DNA from: an uncultured Verrucomicrobiota bacterium | Lineage (GTDB): Bacteria > Verrucomicrobiota > Verrucomicrobiia > Chthoniobacterales > JACTMZ01 | Direction of reading: 5' to 3' | NCBI GenBank assembly: GCA_903953565.1 | Contig: CAJBKE010000004.1 | Location: 1 to 64,000, forward strand | DNA length: 64,000 bases | Shown here: in pieces, positions 50,967-59,727 of the stretch | Numbering within the stretch: the stretch's first letter is position 1 | How the letters are laid out: each line of letters begins with the position of its first letter | Notes under the pieces: model-generated | What the model saw: the letters and a program-made list of their open reading frames with translations, nothing else | The model's database searches: none | Told to the model about the DNA's origin: nothing | Position numbers and translations under genes: made by a program

Positions 50967-52850
50967 TTAGCGCTGCAGACTTCCCTCGATGGTGTCAGCG
51001 GGCAGGGGATCCGCTTGCCAAGTTTGTCCGCTTCGCCCCCGTTCCGAGGGTGTGCTGAAGGTCAGGAGGTCCAACCGTAGCCGGAAAAACAGCGGGGAGA
51101 ATTCCGCTGCGCCACCCGGTTCGAGCAATCCCAGAACCGCCGGCGAGCGCTCCTGCAAGCGCGCGAGGAAGGGCATAACCCACCCGGGCGGTTGCCCCGA
51201 GGAGCGGTATTCCAGCGCGGCGAACCAGAGTTGCCAGTCCAGCCGCGGCATGTGAGGCATGAAGAAGGGCATCTGCGTGTTGCCCGGGTCCATCTTGTAG
51301 CGGAACCGGTAGGGAGCCCAGTTGAGTCCATCCGCACTCGCCTCGATCGTGATTTCTGGTCGCTCCGTGGTCATGACGCTGAAAAGTCCGTAGGAATTCG
51401 TGCTTCGAAATGCCCCGGTCGGACCGATGAGCGGCATTACCGTCGCCGGCGAAACAACGCGCAGCACGAGCAGGAGTTGCAATGTGGTCAGCACGAAAAT
51501 GATGACGGCGAAAAAAGGCGTCGCAACACGGTGGATTCGCTCGGGCCACCGAGTGGCTGCGGGCACATTCGGGCTCAACTCAAGCCGACGACGCAGGAAT
51601 TGCGGCCACCACGAATCATCAACGAGCGAAACGCAGAGGGCCAAGGTGAGCCAGTTGAAAAAGCCGTAGTGGCCGGACAGCATGATCAGAATCATGAGTG
51701 CGCTGAACGCCAGACAGGCGGTCATGCGCAGTCGTCGCGGGCCGGCAATGAGAAACGGGGCGACCAACTCGATGGCAAACACGCCGATAAGCGACACAAT
51801 GTGAAACCATCCCGGAACCTGCGCGATCCACCAGCTCATCCACACCGGAATAGGCTGGGTGAAGTAGTGGAAGCCCAGCGCCGTGCCGTCGAGCCACGCA
51901 TTGGTTCCTGTCGCATCGAATCCATAAAGTTTGACGACACCCGATTCGAACATGAGGCGGAAGAGAAGCCACCAGACAAGCCATCGGCCAATCCGCGAAG
52001 GTGCCGCGGAATCAAAGCCGAGGTAGCGCACCCACGGGACGTAGAAGACAACAAGCAGCCCGGTCTCAAGGAGCAGGGCATCCCATTGGAAATTCAAAAA
52101 AACGGGGACGGCCGAGGCAAAAGACAAGTAGCAGAGCCACGCCACGAAAGCCGAGGCGGCGGGTAGGAATCCGAGAACCAGCAAGGCCGAGGCAGCGGTG
52201 CCGATGCCAAGCCACACGTGCAGAGCGGAATCGCTCGCGCCGAACCAAAGAAGGCTCGGCATCTGCAGCCACCGCGCCGCGGTGCCGCCTTGAGAGGCAA
52301 AGTGATTTTGTGCCGCCGCGAGGTGATCGGCCACCGGAAGGATACCTTGCGATCCGGCCAAGCCGTCGATTTGCACCCAAAGGGAAACGAAAGCACTAAG
52401 AAAGACGAGGCCGACAAGGCGCGGAAAGAGATAACCGGAAATTTGGTAAGTCGGACGCCGGGTGGTTTGGCCCCAAAAGGCATTGGTGAGCGCGCCGCAC
52501 AACCCGCGATGACCCGCCACCCACGAATAGAAATATTCCGCCGCGACCCGGAAAGGTGGAAATCGCCGATAGAGCTTCTCCGCCCATTGTCCATCGCGGC
52601 CACCAGCGGCCAGGGCTTCCAATGCGGCACCAGCACCCGTGGCCAAGCTGCCATCCGTGCGGGCCAGGACAATCCGCGCAAAGGGAACGCCCCCGGCGGC
52701 GGCGACCACATCGGGCGGTGCCGACTGCAGGGTCCGATATTCCACCGAGCCGGCGGAGTCCGCTTGCCAGCGGTCGACCCAGCGCCGGCAAAAACTGCAA
52801 TCTGCGTCCCAGTAGAGCACGGGTTTGCCCTGTGTTTGCTGCGCGTCCAT
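50967..52850 (-). CDS. DCC thiol-disulfide domain fused to lipase-maturation-factor-like membrane protein
   Basis: 627 residues if translation starts at 52850; an ATG at 52961 would add 37. Residues 1-115 are a DUF393/DCC domain with the redox motif DADCSFCRRWVDRW. The rest resembles vertebrate LMF1: about ten membrane helices (FRLMFESGVVKLYG, FNFQWDALLLETGLLVVFYV as LNFQWDALLLETG) and a C-terminal soluble part with YRFRYKMDPGN, MPHMPRLDWQLWFAAL and WVMPFLARLQE. LMF1 helps lipases fold in the endoplasmic reticulum; bacterial relatives are unstudied. The fused redox domain may support disulfide formation. Divergent from the PBP gene. Confidence 0.87.
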   Translation of the reverse strand: MDAQQTQGKPVLYWDADCSFCRRWVDRWQADSAGSVEYRTLQSAPPDVVAAAGGVPFARIVLARTDGSLATGAGAALEALAAGGRDGQWAEKLYRRFPPFRVAAEYFYSWVAGHRGLCGALTNAFWGQTTRRPTYQISGYLFPRLVGLVFLSAFVSLWVQIDGLAGSQGILPVADHLAAAQNHFASQGGTAARWLQMPSLLWFGASDSALHVWLGIGTAASALLVLGFLPAASAFVAWLCYLSFASAVPVFLNFQWDALLLETGLLVVFYVPWVRYLGFDSAAPSRIGRWLVWWLLFRLMFESGVVKLYGFDATGTNAWLDGTALGFHYFTQPIPVWMSWWIAQVPGWFHIVSLIGVFAIELVAPFLIAGPRRLRMTACLAFSALMILIMLSGHYGFFNWLTLALCVSLVDDSWWPQFLRRRLELSPNVPAATRWPERIHRVATPFFAVIIFVLTTLQLLLVLRVVSPATVMPLIGPTGAFRSTNSYGLFSVMTTERPEITIEASADGLNWAPYRFRYKMDPGNTQMPFFMPHMPRLDWQLWFAALEYRSSGQPPGWVMPFLARLQERSPAVLGLLEPGGAAEFSPLFFRLRLDLLTFSTPSERGRSGQTWQADPLPADTIEGSLQR

Positions 52851-52959
52851 GTTGGCCAACAAGCCTGCAATGGTGTAGGATGCAAGTCGAGTCGTCCCGG
52901 GCCGGTATCCGGTGGCCATCCGCCGCCTTTGCCGTCCAAGGAAGCTTTGCCCATCGCGC

Positions 52960-55458
52960 ATGCCACGTAAGAATTACTCTTGGGAAGAGGAGCCCCCGCG
53001 CCGCCGTTCTGCGTGGCGCTGGCTGATCTTGATCCCGCTGCTACTCGCTCTCCTTGGCGCGTTGGTGGCAGGGGTGGGTCTTTACTACATGCGCAGCGAA
53101 TTCATGACTCTGGCTGCGCAATACGATTTCAAGCGGCTGGATCGCATGGAGTCGGCCTCGGTCATTTACGACCGCAAGGGTGCTCAGATGGGAAAAATCT
53201 TCATCCAGAACCGCAATCCGGTGTCTTATGACAAAATATCACCCTTGCTGGTCAACGCGGTCATCGCCGCGGAAGACCAGCGTTTCTGGGATCACGACGG
53301 TGTCGATTATTTCGGTGTCCTGCGCGCCGCACAGGCCAACTGGACGGCGGGGCGGATCCGTCAGGGCGCCAGCACGGTCACGCAACAGTTGGCGCGCAAT
53401 TCCTTCGAACTCAAGGAGCGCACTTACCGTCGCAAGCTCCTCGAAATGGCCCTTGCTCTGCAGATCGAGAAGAATTTCCCCAAGAAAAAGATCATGGAGA
53501 TGTATTTGAACCGCGTCTATTTCGGCGGCGGCCTTTACGGAGCCGAGGCGGCGGCGCGCGGCTATTTCGGCGTGTCGGCCGCCGAACTCACGGCTTCGCA
53601 GGCCGCCGTGCTTGCCGGATTGTTGAAAAGCCCGAACAGCCTCTCGCCGTGGACCAACGTCGAAGCTTCCAAGGCCAATCGTGATGTGGTGCTGAGGCAG
53701 ATGCGGGATCTCGGTATGCTTGATGCCACAGCTTATCGCGAGGCGCTGGCTGAACCGCTCTCCGTGCGCCAGCGCCCGGAGCCCGTCCGGCAATCCTACG
53801 CTCTGGACTATATCCGGCAGCAGGCCATTGCCTCCCTCGGATATGACCGGGCCATGAATGGCGGGTTCCGTATTTACACCACGATCGATACCGACATGCA
53901 GCGCGCGGCCGAGGTGGCCCTGCAGCGGCGGGCCACCGAGGTTGAACAACGTCCGGGCTACGGCAATGAAAGTTTCGAGGACTTTGCCGGAAGACTGGCT
54001 GCCAATCCGCCCAAGTTGGGGGATTCGAACACCAAGCAGCCGACTTACCTGCAGGGCGCCGTGCTTGTTTTGGACAACCAGACCGGCGGGGTTGTTGTCA
54101 TGGTCGGCGGACGCGATTTCCGCCACAGCGAATACAACCGCAGTGTGCAGGGGCGGCGACCGCTCGGCACAGCGTTCCTGCCGATTGTTTATGCTGCGGC
54201 CTTCGAGAAGGGGGTTTTCCCAGGAACGGTCGTGCAGGATTGGGCTTTGGACAACCGCTTGGTCGGGATCGGCGGTGCCGCGGGGATTCTCGGTGAGTGG
54301 GGCGTTGAGCGCGTCGACAACCAATACGACGGCGAGGTGACGGCACGCGAAGCGTTTGTCCGCGGCAAGAATGCGGCCGCGGTCCGTGTCGGGTTCAAGA
54401 CCGGTCTCGAGGCCGTGGGTAAAGTGGCCAAGGATGCCGGCATCGAGTCCCCCTTGCGTCCTTTTGCCAACGCCTACCTGGGCACGAGTGAGGTGACGTT
54501 GGAGGAGAGCACGCTCGCTTACACCATGTTTCCCGGCGGCGGCACACGACCAGCGCGGACGCACGTTATCGATCGTATCGAGGATTCCGATGGCGAGGTG
54601 ATTTACCGGCGCTCGGAAGAACGGAAAACCGTGGTCTCCGACGCAACGGCATGGCAGGTGCACAGTCTGATGACGGACGCGTTGGCTCGGGGCACGGGGG
54701 ACAAAGCCATGACCGACTATGGCCTCGCCGTGGCGGGTTCGGCGGGAAAAACCGGAACGGCCTACGGCTTCACCGATGTCTGGTATTTGGGTTACAGCGA
54801 CCGTTTGACCTGCGGCGTGTGGATGGGATTTGACCGACCGAAGCAAATTTTCCGCGGTGCGTTCGGACGCGATTTGGCTCTTCCCGTTTGGGTCGATGTC
54901 ATGAATTCATCGCGCGAGGAGTTCCCATCTGCCGTCATGAAACCTCCGGTCACGGTGGAACAAGTCGAGGTGTGCCGTCTCACTGGGGAAGCTGCGACTG
55001 ACAAGTGCATTGAGAAAGTCCGCGGGCCCGACGGGACGGAAGTTTCCGAATCCACAGTTTACACTGAATACGCGCGCATCGGCAAAGGGCCGACCACTGC
55101 CTGTCCGCTGCATTCCGGCGGCCCAAAGTCGTTCGTCAAAGAGTTCCAAGAGGAGGAGTGGCCCCGTGCCGCGGCGGCCATTGACCTTTCCAAAATCCGG
55201 CCCGTCGATGTGTCATCATTGCCGGTGGTTGGCGCGGCCGATCCTTACGAGAGTTTTTCGCCCGCATCCATGGCGGTGATGGCGGCACAGGTTCCCGTAG
55301 CCGAAGCCGAGGCCGTAAGTCCGCCGGCCGGTGCCCCTGCGGCGGCGCAACCCGCCGTGCAGGAAGTGCGTGCCGCTCAAGCAGCGGGTGTTTCTGCCGC
55401 GGTGCAGACAGAGCGGTCCGAAATGGCGCTGCCTAAGCCTCCGCCGATCCGGTTTTAG
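52960..55458 (+). CDS. Class A penicillin-binding protein with degenerate transpeptidase motifs
   Basis: 832 residues. One membrane helix (about 18-42) is followed by a GT51 glycosyltransferase with the catalytic Glu105 in AAEDQRFWDHDG, QGASTVTQQLARNSF, and EMYLNRVYFGGGLYGAEAAA: all intact. The transpeptidase region keeps K597-TG (GKTGTAYGFTD), but the nucleophile motif SxxK reads T404-A-F-L407 (PLGTAFLPIVYAAA) and the SxN motif reads G469-K-N. Both are unusual, so crosslinking activity is doubtful while glycan-strand polymerisation should remain. A long Ala/Glu/Pro-rich tail (about 760-832) closes the protein. It overlaps the PKS gene by four bases tail to tail. Confidence 0.9.
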   Translation: MPRKNYSWEEEPPRRRSAWRWLILIPLLLALLGALVAGVGLYYMRSEFMTLAAQYDFKRLDRMESASVIYDRKGAQMGKIFIQNRNPVSYDKISPLLVNAVIAAEDQRFWDHDGVDYFGVLRAAQANWTAGRIRQGASTVTQQLARNSFELKERTYRRKLLEMALALQIEKNFPKKKIMEMYLNRVYFGGGLYGAEAAARGYFGVSAAELTASQAAVLAGLLKSPNSLSPWTNVEASKANRDVVLRQMRDLGMLDATAYREALAEPLSVRQRPEPVRQSYALDYIRQQAIASLGYDRAMNGGFRIYTTIDTDMQRAAEVALQRRATEVEQRPGYGNESFEDFAGRLAANPPKLGDSNTKQPTYLQGAVLVLDNQTGGVVVMVGGRDFRHSEYNRSVQGRRPLGTAFLPIVYAAAFEKGVFPGTVVQDWALDNRLVGIGGAAGILGEWGVERVDNQYDGEVTAREAFVRGKNAAAVRVGFKTGLEAVGKVAKDAGIESPLRPFANAYLGTSEVTLEESTLAYTMFPGGGTRPARTHVIDRIEDSDGEVIYRRSEERKTVVSDATAWQVHSLMTDALARGTGDKAMTDYGLAVAGSAGKTGTAYGFTDVWYLGYSDRLTCGVWMGFDRPKQIFRGAFGRDLALPVWVDVMNSSREEFPSAVMKPPVTVEQVEVCRLTGEAATDKCIEKVRGPDGTEVSESTVYTEYARIGKGPTTACPLHSGGPKSFVKEFQEEEWPRAAAAIDLSKIRPVDVSSLPVVGAADPYESFSPASMAVMAAQVPVAEAEAVSPPAGAPAAAQPAVQEVRAAQAAGVSAAVQTERSEMALPKPPPIRF

Positions 55459-56501
55459 GAAATGCCCACCCGGCAAGCGTGCGCGCTGAAACCCGCGCCA
55501 AACGAGGTCAGCCACCAGTCGGTCGACTCTTCGGGTTGGCTATCGCGCAGGGCCTCGGCCAAAGCGAAGAGCACGGACGGACTGCTCATATTGCCGTGGC
55601 GTCTCAAGATCTTCCGGGAGACGCCAAGATCGTGTTGCGGAAATTCTTTCGCCAACGCATCGAGCACATCGCGGCCGCCGGTGTGCGAGAGGATCCGCCC
55701 AATGGGACGCTGGCTTCCGGCTGCGGCGCGCGCGTAGAGCTTGCTCACCGCACCGGCGGCCAATGATGGCACGGATGGGTGGAGCAGGTTGCGGAGTTTT
55801 CCCTGCCGTTGCTCGAAGCGTATGCGGTCGCGCTCCTGCGGATCGTGATGTGTATCGAACGAATGGCACCGCAAGCCCGACGGCCCCGGCTGCGACTTCC
55901 AAATGGTGGCTGCCGCGCCATCGCCGAACAGGCACGAGCTGATGATGACACCCGGATCGTTGTCGAGATAGAACGCCGCGGAACAAACCTCCACGGCGAG
56001 GCAGGCCACGGTGGCGGCGGGGTGCGCGGCGAGGATTCCGTCCACGGCACGAAGCGCGGGAATGGCGGCGCCGCAGCCGAGTCCGACAAGATCCTGCAGC
56101 CACGCATTATCCCGCAAACCCGCGATCTCCGAAACATAGCTGCTGACGCCCGGACACAAATATCCCGTGCAAGTGCAGACCACGAGTGCATCGAGAGCGT
56201 CCGGCCGCACTCCCGCTTGTTCCAGGGCCTCTGAGAGGGCTTGTGCGCCGAGTGGCGGCGCCGTTTGCCGGAATTCCTCGTTGAGTTCGTCGGCGTCCAT
56301 ATCGAAGAGCCTGTTGATATCCCGCACGGCAAACTGACGACGATCGATGCCGGAATCGCCGCGCAGGATGGCCGACAGAAGCAAACGCGAGCGGCGATCA
56401 AGCTGGTCGTGTAGAGCTGGTGAGGACTTGGCCAAGAGCAAGCATTCTGGCTGGGTGAGGGACCGGGCCGGATTCGCGGTGGCCAGTGCGTGGAGGAACA
56501 T
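55455..56501 (-). CDS. Type III polyketide synthase (chalcone-synthase-like)
   Basis: 348 residues, typical for the family. The catalytic triad is Cys143 (DLVGLGCGAAIPAL), His273 (ILSHTGGRDVLDAL) and Asn304 (RRHGNMSSPSVLFAL); the end SFGAGFSAHACRVG matches the GFGPG-type loop. These enzymes extend an acyl-CoA starter with malonyl-CoA to make resorcinols, pyrones or related lipids. It follows an FAD oxidoreductase gene by six bases on the minus strand and is last in the operon with glgX and the redoxin; the FAD enzyme probably modifies its product. Confidence 0.93.
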   Translation of the reverse strand: MFLHALATANPARSLTQPECLLLAKSSPALHDQLDRRSRLLLSAILRGDSGIDRRQFAVRDINRLFDMDADELNEEFRQTAPPLGAQALSEALEQAGVRPDALDALVVCTCTGYLCPGVSSYVSEIAGLRDNAWLQDLVGLGCGAAIPALRAVDGILAAHPAATVACLAVEVCSAAFYLDNDPGVIISSCLFGDGAAATIWKSQPGPSGLRCHSFDTHHDPQERDRIRFEQRQGKLRNLLHPSVPSLAAGAVSKLYARAAAGSQRPIGRILSHTGGRDVLDALAKEFPQHDLGVSRKILRRHGNMSSPSVLFALAEALRDSQPEESTDWWLTSFGAGFSAHACRVGIS

Positions 56502-56507
56502 GATGAT

Positions 56508-57512
56508 TCAGTGGCTCAGCCGGTAAAGGGTGTTGAAGGGAAGGAGCCCCATGCGGTGCAGCGCGTGTATGAGACTTCGGCGTCCCGGGTCCAAAAGCCA
56601 AGGGTGGATCAGTCGGCTGACCAAAATTCTCCGCCGGAATCGCCGGTGCAAATCGCGCGAAACTCCCGCGATCGTCCCGGTCCATGGCACCAGCCCGCGG
56701 GACCAGGCCTCGAAATGCCCTAGCGAGGCCGAGGCACTCTGCAGGGCGATGGTCATGCCATGGCCGGTGAATGGCGGAATCAAGCCTTGTTGGTCGCCGA
56801 GGGATGCGGGCGCCATGGCCTTGGACGCGTAATTCAGCCCGGCCACCGCGCAGTCGGTGCCCTCAATGGATTCTGCGGCTTGCAGACGATCGGCCAGATC
56901 GTTCAGACCGACCGCACGAATCCTTCCGGTCAAAGAGCACGATTCGCCCGCGCGCGGGCGGGGGAACAGCCCGCAAACATTGACCAAGGAATCTTCGACC
57001 CGGGTCAGGCCAACATAGGCACCGCGGCCCAGATGCACCTCGAGGGCATCGTGCAGCGGAAGAGAACGGAAATGTTGTTTGAGGCCGATCCACGGCGAGG
57101 AAGCGAGGGGGCGTCGTCCGCAAGCTATCACGCGCCCCTCGGCGGGTTCTGCAGTGCATCGTTGCTGCGTGCGCAAGTCGCCGCCGGAAGCGGTGAAAGC
57201 TTCGGCCATTTTGGCATCAAGATTGAAGCGACTCAGACATAGTGCGGGATGGGGAAAGTGGTGACGCATATCCGGCCGGCCGGGCTCGCACCAAGTGACA
57301 CTGCGGGCCGGGCGCGCGGGTTTCAGCAGCTCCCGCAACTGCAGGCGGGAGGACGTTTGCTCGTCGAGACCGGTGATGAATTCACCGCAGACCCGGTGGC
57401 GTGGATAGGATCCGGATTCGATCAAGCGGACCGGAATTCCCCGGGCCCGCAAACCAAGCCCGAGGGAAAGTCCGGCCAGGCCACCGCCGATGATTTCCAC
57501 GGTGCGGAGCAT
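56508..57512 (-). CDS. FAD-dependent oxidoreductase of the geranylgeranyl-reductase/hydroxylase type
   Basis: 334 residues from ATG at 57512, placing the FAD motif VEIIGGGLAGLSLGLGLRAR at the N-terminus. Further marks are PRHRVCGEFITG and, in the C-terminal half, GLIPPFTGHGMTIALQSAS, where GHGM is the usual FAD-binding GD/GH motif. Family members hydroxylate or reduce phenolics and lipids. It sits directly before the type III PKS gene (six-base gap) and 34 bases after glgX, so it most likely modifies the PKS product, giving a hydroxylated lipid or quinone. The product is unknown. Confidence 0.87.
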   Translation of the reverse strand: MLRTVEIIGGGLAGLSLGLGLRARGIPVRLIESGSYPRHRVCGEFITGLDEQTSSRLQLRELLKPARPARSVTWCEPGRPDMRHHFPHPALCLSRFNLDAKMAEAFTASGGDLRTQQRCTAEPAEGRVIACGRRPLASSPWIGLKQHFRSLPLHDALEVHLGRGAYVGLTRVEDSLVNVCGLFPRPRAGESCSLTGRIRAVGLNDLADRLQAAESIEGTDCAVAGLNYASKAMAPASLGDQQGLIPPFTGHGMTIALQSASASLGHFEAWSRGLVPWTGTIAGVSRDLHRRFRRRILVSRLIHPWLLDPGRRSLIHALHRMGLLPFNTLYRLSH

Positions 57513-57546
57513 AGTATCGGTATCCGTGGGTGAGAGTGCCTGGCCG

Positions 57547-59727
57547 CTAACTGCGGCCGTCGGCAATGTCCTCGCGCCCGAGGCAAAGCACGCAACTCTT
57601 CGGGATCAGGTTGAGACGCGGGTTGGCCGGCAAGCGCGGTTCCTGTCCGCGCTCATAAATATCCTCGGGCGACGGCCGCGAAGTGTCGGCCAGCAAGTGC
57701 CAGCTCCAGCCGGCCGGCAGGTGCGGCAACACGAAATCGAGCGGCTCCGAATGCATGTTGAATGCGGCGTAAACGAATTCGCCTTCACCCCCGAGCGCAT
57801 GGTCGTGTTGACCGCAAATCATGAAAGCCAAGGAATGACTGAACTCGCCCCAGTCCGGCTTGCCCGGCTCGACACCTTGCCACGAAATATCGGGATACCC
57901 GCTACCGATACAATCATCACCGGTGAACCAGTCGGATCGGCGCAGGCTGGCGTGGGCGCGGCGGAAGGCGATGAGAAGACGGGTGAAGCGGAGAAGTCCC
58001 TCATGGCGCGCGACCAGATCCCAGTCGAGCCAGTTCCATTCGGTGTCGTGGCAGTAAGCGTTGTTGTTTCCCCGTTGCGTGCGGCTGATCTCATCGCCCA
58101 TGTAGATCATGGGAACACCCTGGCTGACCATGAGAAGGGCCATGGCATTCTTGGCACAGCGCAGCCGTAAAGCGTTGATCTCGGGATCGCTGGTCGGGCC
58201 CTCCGTGCCGCAATTCCACGACCAGTTGTCGTTGCCGCCGTCGATGTTGCTTTCGCCGTTTTCCAAATTGTTTTTCGCTTCGTAGGCAAAGAGGTCGGCC
58301 AAGGTGAAGCCGTCGTGGCAGGTGATGAAATTGACCGAGGCCGAGGGTTTCCGTCCGCTCGCGCGGTAAAGATCGGGCGATCCCATGATGCGCTGGACCA
58401 TTTCGCCGACCGAATCGTCATCGCCGCGCAGGAAACGGCGGGCCGCGTCGCGGTATTTGCCGTTCCACTCCATCCACCGGCCGTAGCTCGGAAAGTTGCC
58501 GACCTGATAAAGTCCGCCGGCATCCCAAGCTTCGGCAATAAGTTCGCAGTGGGCCAGGACCGGGTCGTGCGCGATGGATTCGAGCAGCGGCGGATTCGGC
58601 AGGGGATGACCTTGCGAATCGCGGCCGAGAACCGATGCCAGATCGAAGCGGAAGCCGTCGATGTGGTATTCGGCCGCCCAGTAACGAAGGCAGTCGAGGA
58701 CGAAATCCCTGACCACGGGCTGGTTGCAATCGAGCGTGTTGCCGCAACCGCTGAAGTTCAGGTAATCGCCGTTGGGGGCGAGCAGATAGTAGGTTTTGTT
58801 GTCGAGGCCCCGGAAAGAAATGACCGGTCCGGACGCGTCACCTTCCGCCGTGTGGTTGAAGACGACATCGAGAATGACCTGGATGCCCGCAGCGTGGAGG
58901 CTCTTGACCAGATCTTTGAGTTCGTTGACCTCCTGCCCCTTATTGCCGCTTGCGGCGAAGCCCGCTTTCGGTGCGCGGAAGGCCAACGTGCTGTAACCCC
59001 AGTAATTGCAGAGAGGTTCGCCGGTGTCGGGGTTCTTGCGAAAATTCTCGTGCTCGTCGAACTCGAAGATCGGCATGAGTTCCACGCAATTGATCCCCAA
59101 CTCGACCAAGTGGGGAATTTTCTCCCGCAGCCCGTCGTATGTCCCGGGATGAGCCACGCCGGACGATGCGTGCCGTGTGAAACCGCGCACATGCATTTCG
59201 TAGATGACGAGGTTGGAGACCGGAAGGTCGAGCGGGCGATCGTGCCCCCAGTCGAAGTCATTTTCCGGTATGCGTCCGCGGTGCGGGAAGATATCTGCTT
59301 TGCGCGCAGGACTGCAAAAAACCGTGCGCCCGCCGACGGCGCGGGCAAAGGGATCAAGGAGAACGTGGCGGCGGTCGAAGCGGTGGCCGGCATGCGGGTT
59401 GAACGGACCGTCCATGCGGTAGCCGTATTCGATTTCGTGAGGATCGAGATCGAAGACCATCATGGCAAAGACATCGCCCATGCGGAATTCGGGAGGAAAA
59501 GGAATCTCCGCGAAGGGACGGTGCTCGCCCTTCTGGAAGAGAACCAAGGTGCAGGACGTGGCGTTGGACGAGAAGACCGAGAAATTGACTCCGCCGGGGA
59601 CGAGACTCGCGCCGAAGGGCAGGGGATGACCGTAGCGGAGACGGAATACGCCGTGGTGGTGTGTGGGATGTTGTCGGCGTTCCGCGGAGCGATTAACCCC
59701 GCTGCGCTGCGAGGTGACTACTTCCAC
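57547..59727 (-). CDS. glgX: Glycogen debranching enzyme
   Basis: 726 residues. The N-terminal CBM48 (PFGASLVPGGVNFSVFSSNA) precedes a GH13 barrel with VIYEMHVRGFTRH, VILDVVFNHTAEGD, the nucleophile Asp in DGFRFDLASV, the acid Glu in IAEAWDAGG and Asp in FITCHDGFTL. The isoamylase-type NNNAYCHDTEWNWLDWD is also present. It removes alpha-1,6 branches after glycogen phosphorylase has shortened the chains. Its start overlaps the redoxin gene end by ten bases, and FAD oxidoreductase and PKS genes follow; the metabolic link to these is not obvious. Confidence 0.95.
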   Translation of the reverse strand: MEVVTSQRSGVNRSAERRQHPTHHHGVFRLRYGHPLPFGASLVPGGVNFSVFSSNATSCTLVLFQKGEHRPFAEIPFPPEFRMGDVFAMMVFDLDPHEIEYGYRMDGPFNPHAGHRFDRRHVLLDPFARAVGGRTVFCSPARKADIFPHRGRIPENDFDWGHDRPLDLPVSNLVIYEMHVRGFTRHASSGVAHPGTYDGLREKIPHLVELGINCVELMPIFEFDEHENFRKNPDTGEPLCNYWGYSTLAFRAPKAGFAASGNKGQEVNELKDLVKSLHAAGIQVILDVVFNHTAEGDASGPVISFRGLDNKTYYLLAPNGDYLNFSGCGNTLDCNQPVVRDFVLDCLRYWAAEYHIDGFRFDLASVLGRDSQGHPLPNPPLLESIAHDPVLAHCELIAEAWDAGGLYQVGNFPSYGRWMEWNGKYRDAARRFLRGDDDSVGEMVQRIMGSPDLYRASGRKPSASVNFITCHDGFTLADLFAYEAKNNLENGESNIDGGNDNWSWNCGTEGPTSDPEINALRLRCAKNAMALLMVSQGVPMIYMGDEISRTQRGNNNAYCHDTEWNWLDWDLVARHEGLLRFTRLLIAFRRAHASLRRSDWFTGDDCIGSGYPDISWQGVEPGKPDWGEFSHSLAFMICGQHDHALGGEGEFVYAAFNMHSEPLDFVLPHLPAGWSWHLLADTSRPSPEDIYERGQEPRLPANPRLNLIPKSCVLCLGREDIADGRS

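Follow-up and report, generated by a model that had tools for sequence, protein, structure and literature searches.

The window analysed here is a stretch of 64,000 nucleotides from an uncultured Verrucomicrobiota bacterium of the order Chthoniobacterales, and it contains the gene of a class A penicillin-binding protein (PBP) with a degenerate transpeptidase (TP) domain, referred to here as P0001 (Table 1). The position of its ATG start agrees with the N-termini of the aligned orthologues, and the protein displays the architecture of class A PBPs, with one N-terminal membrane helix, a GT51 glycosyltransferase (GT) domain and, downstream of it, the transpeptidase fold. P0001 scores 489.3 bits against the NCBIfam model PBP_1a_fam (TIGR02074), slightly below the curated cut-off of 508.75, and also stays below the cut-off of mono_pep_trsgly (162.8 vs 182.65). 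The C-terminal extension carries three Cys and one His residue that could form a disulfide or a metal site. The PBP start codon shares bases (overlap at 52959-52961) with the opposite-strand ATG at which the divergent upstream gene (50967-52961, minus strand) begins in its longest reading. This gene resembles lipase maturation factors and has a DCC1-like domain; its real start is perhaps located further inside. Downstream, the convergent region 55455-57566 (minus strand) holds a type III polyketide synthase-like gene beside a weakly matching FAD-binding-domain gene, and several members of the genus retain the former beside the PBP. These neighbouring genes were rejected as an explanation of the transpeptidase loss, since the neighbourhood is common to the genus only.

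Table 1. Features of the P0001 gene, in positions of the window
Feature	Positions	Strand	Remarks
Class A PBP gene with degenerate transpeptidase (P0001)	52960..55458	+	832 aa plus stop, single open reading frame
Predicted membrane helix, residues 18-53	53011..53118	+	AlphaFold2 model, pLDDT >90 from residue 21
GT51 glycosyltransferase domain, residues 78-248	53191..53703	+	Pfam PF00912, E 1e-62
Glu105	53272-53274	+	GT51 catalytic glutamate, by position
Glu162	53443-53445	+	GT51 catalytic glutamate, by position
Pseudo-transpeptidase domain PF00905, residues 366-606	54055..54777	+	Pfam, E 8e-16, above cut-off
Degenerate SxxK, T404-A-F-L407	54169..54180	+	Start of helix 403-416, normal site of the nucleophile
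DNR.V.IGG..GILGEWG.E block, residues 431-450	54250..54309	+	Between SxxK helix and SxN, low-confidence loop
Degenerate SxN, G469-K-N471	54364..54372	+	Sequence and alignment
KTG, residues 597-599	54748..54756	+	Intact in P0001
C-terminal extension with conserved C672, C683, C715, H718	54973..55113	+	99% conserved in T..x clade members

An earlier note on this DNA had described the GT51 motifs as complete, including Glu105, and this description holds, as Glu105 and Glu162 are both present and, together with D106, H112, G136, S138, Q143, K159 and N184, invariant in 134 aligned relatives. In transpeptidases of this type, the SxxK motif provides the nucleophile serine and the general-base lysine. 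When P0001 is aligned to the PBP1a structures 4oon, 3udf and 5u2g, T404-A-F-L407 falls on SxxK, GKN (469-471) on SxN and K597-T-G-T on KTGT, and translation and alignment thereby agree with the earlier reading of a TAFL sequence at 404-407, GKN in place of SxN and an intact KTG. P0001 lacks the nucleophile/base pair of SxxK as well as the SxN serine, the KTG being present; the corresponding codons in this genome are ACA (404), CTG (407) and GGC (469). A sequencing error is ruled out, given that orthologues of independent genomes share Thr404 without Lys407. P0001 is therefore a class A PBP in ancestry and domain layout but, as judged from these motifs, not a penicillin-binding transpeptidase in its active site. 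The further suggestion that the protein uses a different residue is unsupported in most of the clade described below, because no other SxxK is conserved. Among the 109 relatives with Thr404 and without Lys407 (state T..x), no conserved alternative S/TxxK was found in the TP region or the C-terminus, where four such strings occur after residue 250, namely SNTK356 (2/109), TGDK579 (18/109), SAGK594 (6/109) and SFVK724 (24/109). Thr404 itself may act as nucleophile in the minority of members with TxxK, SxN and KTG.

All orthologues of the genus in which this region is covered read G-T-[AG]-F-[LVA]-P, and one orthologue of 48% identity reads GTAFIP. A best match to P0001 better than 1e-150 is found in 134 of the 147 genomes of the order (counts read from a table), most of which also hold a second match at the level of the canonical paralogue. 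No match to the family occurs in G017 and G027 (f8/g8), two single-contig genomes of 0.9 Mb within the order, as expected of reduced symbiont-like genomes. The class-wide search adds orthologues from families f34 and f15, including one that reads GTAILP/SKI/KTGT in the f15 genome G228 (positions 2,584,479-2,586,881), taken as Akkermansia muciniphila ATCC BAA-835. Within Chthoniobacterales, the family represents a second class A PBP, and with the members from two further families it extends over two orders of Verrucomicrobiota. When the ten motif columns were masked before tree building, the P0001 family formed one clade, both with FastTree (138/180 rows, local support 95) and with an IQ-TREE mixture model (64/79 rows, SH-aLRT 99). 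Its 138 members carry Thr404 in 128 cases and Ser404 in 10, Lys407 in 27, Ser469 in 83 and Asn471 in 113, while K597 and G599 are present in 138/138 and T598 in 99/138. Classified by positions 404 and 407, 109 members are, like P0001, T..x, 19 are T..K, 8 are S..K and 2 are S..x. Outside the clade, Ser404, Lys407, Ser469, Asn471 and K597-T-G are found in 42/42 canonical sequences. The DNR.V.IGG..GILGEWG.E block varies hardly at all within the clade and does not occur in the canonicals. Searched as a DNA pattern among 388 genomes of the phylum, it matches 17, which all belong to Chthoniobacterales, f34 or f15, although such a strict pattern overlooks many true members and absence elsewhere is therefore only indicative; no GILGEWG block was found on viral contigs.

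Among the 23 TP positions conserved in at least 93% of the canonicals, those lost in T..x sequences are S404, K407, S469, N471 and T598 only, i.e., five of the seven motif positions, and all 16 non-motif positions are present in P0001. The hypergeometric probability of such a motif-only loss is 6e-4 at the 93% cut-off, 0.001 at 97% and 0.01 at 100%; at 90%, 18 of 44 TP positions differ and the signal is blurred (p 0.09), and thus the motif-only claim is limited to near-invariant positions. Pairwise dN/dS of the TP domain is about 0.02-0.12 in close pairs, similar to that of the protein's own GT domain and of the TP domain of the canonical paralogue. The AlphaFold2 model built from a 134-row alignment, which replaced one from a 10-row genus alignment with a pLDDT of 43, reaches a mean pLDDT of 87.7. 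The transpeptidase fold is predicted with confidence (pLDDT about 95 outside one loop), with the nucleophile-bearing helix modelled from residue 403; in the block, the loop 441-450 has a pLDDT of about 52. The best Foldseek matches of the model are PBP1b and PBP1a. The alignment, the same losses across two orders and the catalytic nature of all near-invariant TP losses support the central claim of the earlier note, that the glycosyltransferase is whole and the transpeptidase apparently non-catalytic. The pattern is that of a pseudo-enzyme domain, apparently old and useful, and not of decay, since the same loss has been kept across two orders.

We consider it quite probable that P0001 is a membrane-anchored class A PBP with GT activity only, which retains a structural or regulatory pseudo-transpeptidase and leaves the crosslinking of its glycan strands to another transpeptidase acting in trans. 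As we infer GT activity, absence of acylation, role of the pseudo-domain and identity of the partner, the GT51 domain would polymerise lipid II into glycan strands, and the C-terminal domain, with its transpeptidase fold intact, would be unable to form the acyl-enzyme for lack of the nucleophile, of the lysine of SxxK and of the serine of SxN. The pseudo-transpeptidase would be retained as a scaffold for the GT domain, as a docking surface or as a non-covalent holder of stem peptides. The near-invariance of K597, G599 and T600, which belong to the carboxylate-binding strand of canonical PBPs, and the replacement of Thr404 by Ser only argue against a mere scaffold; these retained residues might bind a ligand or support weak chemistry. 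The strands would be crosslinked by the canonical class A paralogue or by a class B PBP of the same genome. The earlier note's proposal of a separate class B enzyme as partner is thus incomplete; either type could serve, since the genome encodes, some 30 kb beyond P0001, a canonical class A PBP (G000:C4:85360-87138, minus strand; SSVK/SRN/KTG, 39% identical, 647 aa, without the GILGEWG block and without the C-terminal extension) and, of six PF00905 domains in total, four other than the two of class A, as well as two SEDS proteins. Crosslinking in trans has a precedent in pneumococcus, where PBP2b and PBP2x, both of class B, carry out crosslinking in combination with a class A PBP2A that mutation has deprived of TP activity (review PMC4632607). 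However, it is not automatic, because in E. coli TP-inactive PBP1A alone did not make PBP2 active, and the TP of bifunctional PBPs depends on their own ongoing GT activity (review PMC4632607).

An unlikely variant is that the pseudo-transpeptidase is chiefly a regulator, which would gate the GT domain by non-covalent binding of a partner protein or of stem peptides via KTG and the GILGEWG loop. The invariant lysine and glycine of KTGT, the purifying selection on the TP domain and the 20-residue block beside the site, near-invariant in the clade only, are consistent with such a role. However, the block is predicted as a low-confidence loop and, since members with a regained SxxK also carry it, is independent of the dead state; both ligand and partner are hypothetical.

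Position 404 requires two changes on either tree, from Ser to Thr at the base of the clade and from Thr to Ser in genus g30 of family f6 (L093, L157, L163-L167, L169, L172 and L174), and a model without the second change is worse by 19-22 log units. Independently of the tree, the codons indicate that Ser404 was re-derived from Thr in g30, since the catalytic serine is encoded by TCN in 42/42 canonicals and by AGC, one step from the Thr codon ACC, in 10/10 g30 sequences. The canonical class A PBPs of three of the g30 genomes use TCN in 5/5 cases read, although AGC also encodes many other serines in the g30 genes. Among the ten g30 sequences, Lys407 is present in eight and Leu407 in two, and SxN and KTG in all. 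It seems somewhat favoured by this pattern that the catalytic Ser was replaced by Thr in the ancestor of the two orders and that Thr later reverted to Ser in g30, bringing a complete SxxK/SxN/KTG site back in 8/10 sequences, in what would be a natural loss and regain of an active site. At Lys407, parsimony gives seven changes and irreversible loss is worse by 6-11 log units, which fits repeated loss with some regain, less firmly than the reversal at 404; the other catalytic positions changed five (469), three (471) and ten (598) times. The rest of the site (SxN Ser and Asn, KTG Thr) is intact in 26 of the 27 members with Lys407 vs 29 of the 111 without it. An association between retention of Lys407 and of the rest of the site was set aside despite these strong raw counts, as there are too few independent contrasts (4-6, none informative).

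These data also bear on the possibility that Thr404 is an altered nucleophile, i.e., that the protein works as an acyltransferase with a catalytic threonine, slow or specialised and perhaps not inhibited by beta-lactams, which we regard as quite improbable. Thr404 is found in all 109 T..x members, K597 is invariant, 19 members combine Thr with Lys407 and almost all those with Lys407 keep the rest of the site; Thr members with Lys407 and the rest intact are therefore one methyl group away from a canonical site. However, the general base is lost in P0001 and in most of the clade, often together with the SxN serine, and the other catalytic positions decay repeatedly, as the changes counted above indicate. 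Moreover, Ser and Thr in the first turn of a helix can act as helix caps, which would explain the retention of Thr404 at that position, and we know of no family with a threonine-nucleophile variant of the PBP transpeptidase fold. A decaying gene, an assembly error or a recent pseudogene, to which the degenerate motifs might point, has a negligible probability and is refuted by conservation and dN/dS, with the frame open and the same Thr kept in dozens of independent genomes under strong purifying selection.

The protein that we thus take to be a glycosyltransferase with a pseudo-transpeptidase shares membrane helix, GT51 domain, linker and transpeptidase fold with bifunctional class A PBPs (E. 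coli PBP1a and PBP1b, A. baumannii and P. aeruginosa PBP1a), whereas the Ser and Lys of SxxK and the Ser of SxN are replaced and the GILGEWG block is added. The canonical paralogue of the same genome has the same domains and differs by its SSVK/SRN/KTG motifs. GT-only activity would be expected likewise of monofunctional glycosyltransferases (MtgA/SgtB), but these have no transpeptidase domain, unlike the 832-aa P0001 with its PF00905 domain. Laboratory-made TP-dead class A PBPs (pneumococcal PBP2A, E. coli PBP1A/1B) combine an active GT with an inactive TP and can, in the pneumococcal case, feed class B PBPs (PMC4632607), but they are engineered and not naturally fixed. Natural examples are the 13 of 100 class A PBPs of Streptomyces that lack SxxK, with SxN and KTG mostly kept (2016 review PMC6273383), although these belong to a different phylum, are scattered exceptions and were read as functional PBPs. 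Akkermansia was counted among the bacteria retaining a class A PBP in a 2021 survey (PMC8406291). In the open-access literature, no report of TP-dead class A PBPs in Verrucomicrobiota was found, and no passage on class A PBPs was found in the V. spinosum essential-gene paper (PMC12283558). SxxK-less class A PBPs as such are already known; new are the fixation of the loss throughout a clade of two orders, the Thr state itself, the reversal supported by codons and a second family.

Class A PBPs are treated as bifunctional by default, and domain-based annotation counts the clade as crosslinking, penicillin-binding enzymes. Two Verrucomicrobiota orders, including the cultivable gut species A. muciniphila, possess a class A PBP expected to polymerise without crosslinking. 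This raises the testable question of how a transpeptidase domain serves the glycosyltransferase without chemistry and which enzyme crosslinks the strands. Moreover, the Thr-to-Ser reversal provides a natural series (S..K, T..K, T..x and S..x) on one scaffold for the decay and revival of an acyltransferase site.

Loss of the TP function appears not to be restricted to the P0001 clade. In the Akkermansia family, 17 of 18 genomes tested encode a further, independent class A PBP of some 570-640 residues (L238/L261, G228:C1:1490161-1491951, and L262-L277), with intact GT51 motifs, SxxK replaced (GDLFTP, GAAFEP and others) and SxN and KTG unrecognisable in the alignment. Its TP domain is more eroded than that of the P0001 clade, and its gene adjoins a canonical class A gene in several genomes. 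Since this second family appears TP-dead with GT motifs intact, the phylum would have seen two or more losses of the TP with retention of the GT. Judged by sequence, the class A PBPs of A. muciniphila would comprise two TP-dead proteins and a single complete one, a point relevant to the targets of beta-lactams and to what is concluded about the wall of this species. An f34 genome also holds an extra copy of the GTAFLP family (L241; G206:C1, near 363675), with GKT in place of SxN and WGG in place of KTG.
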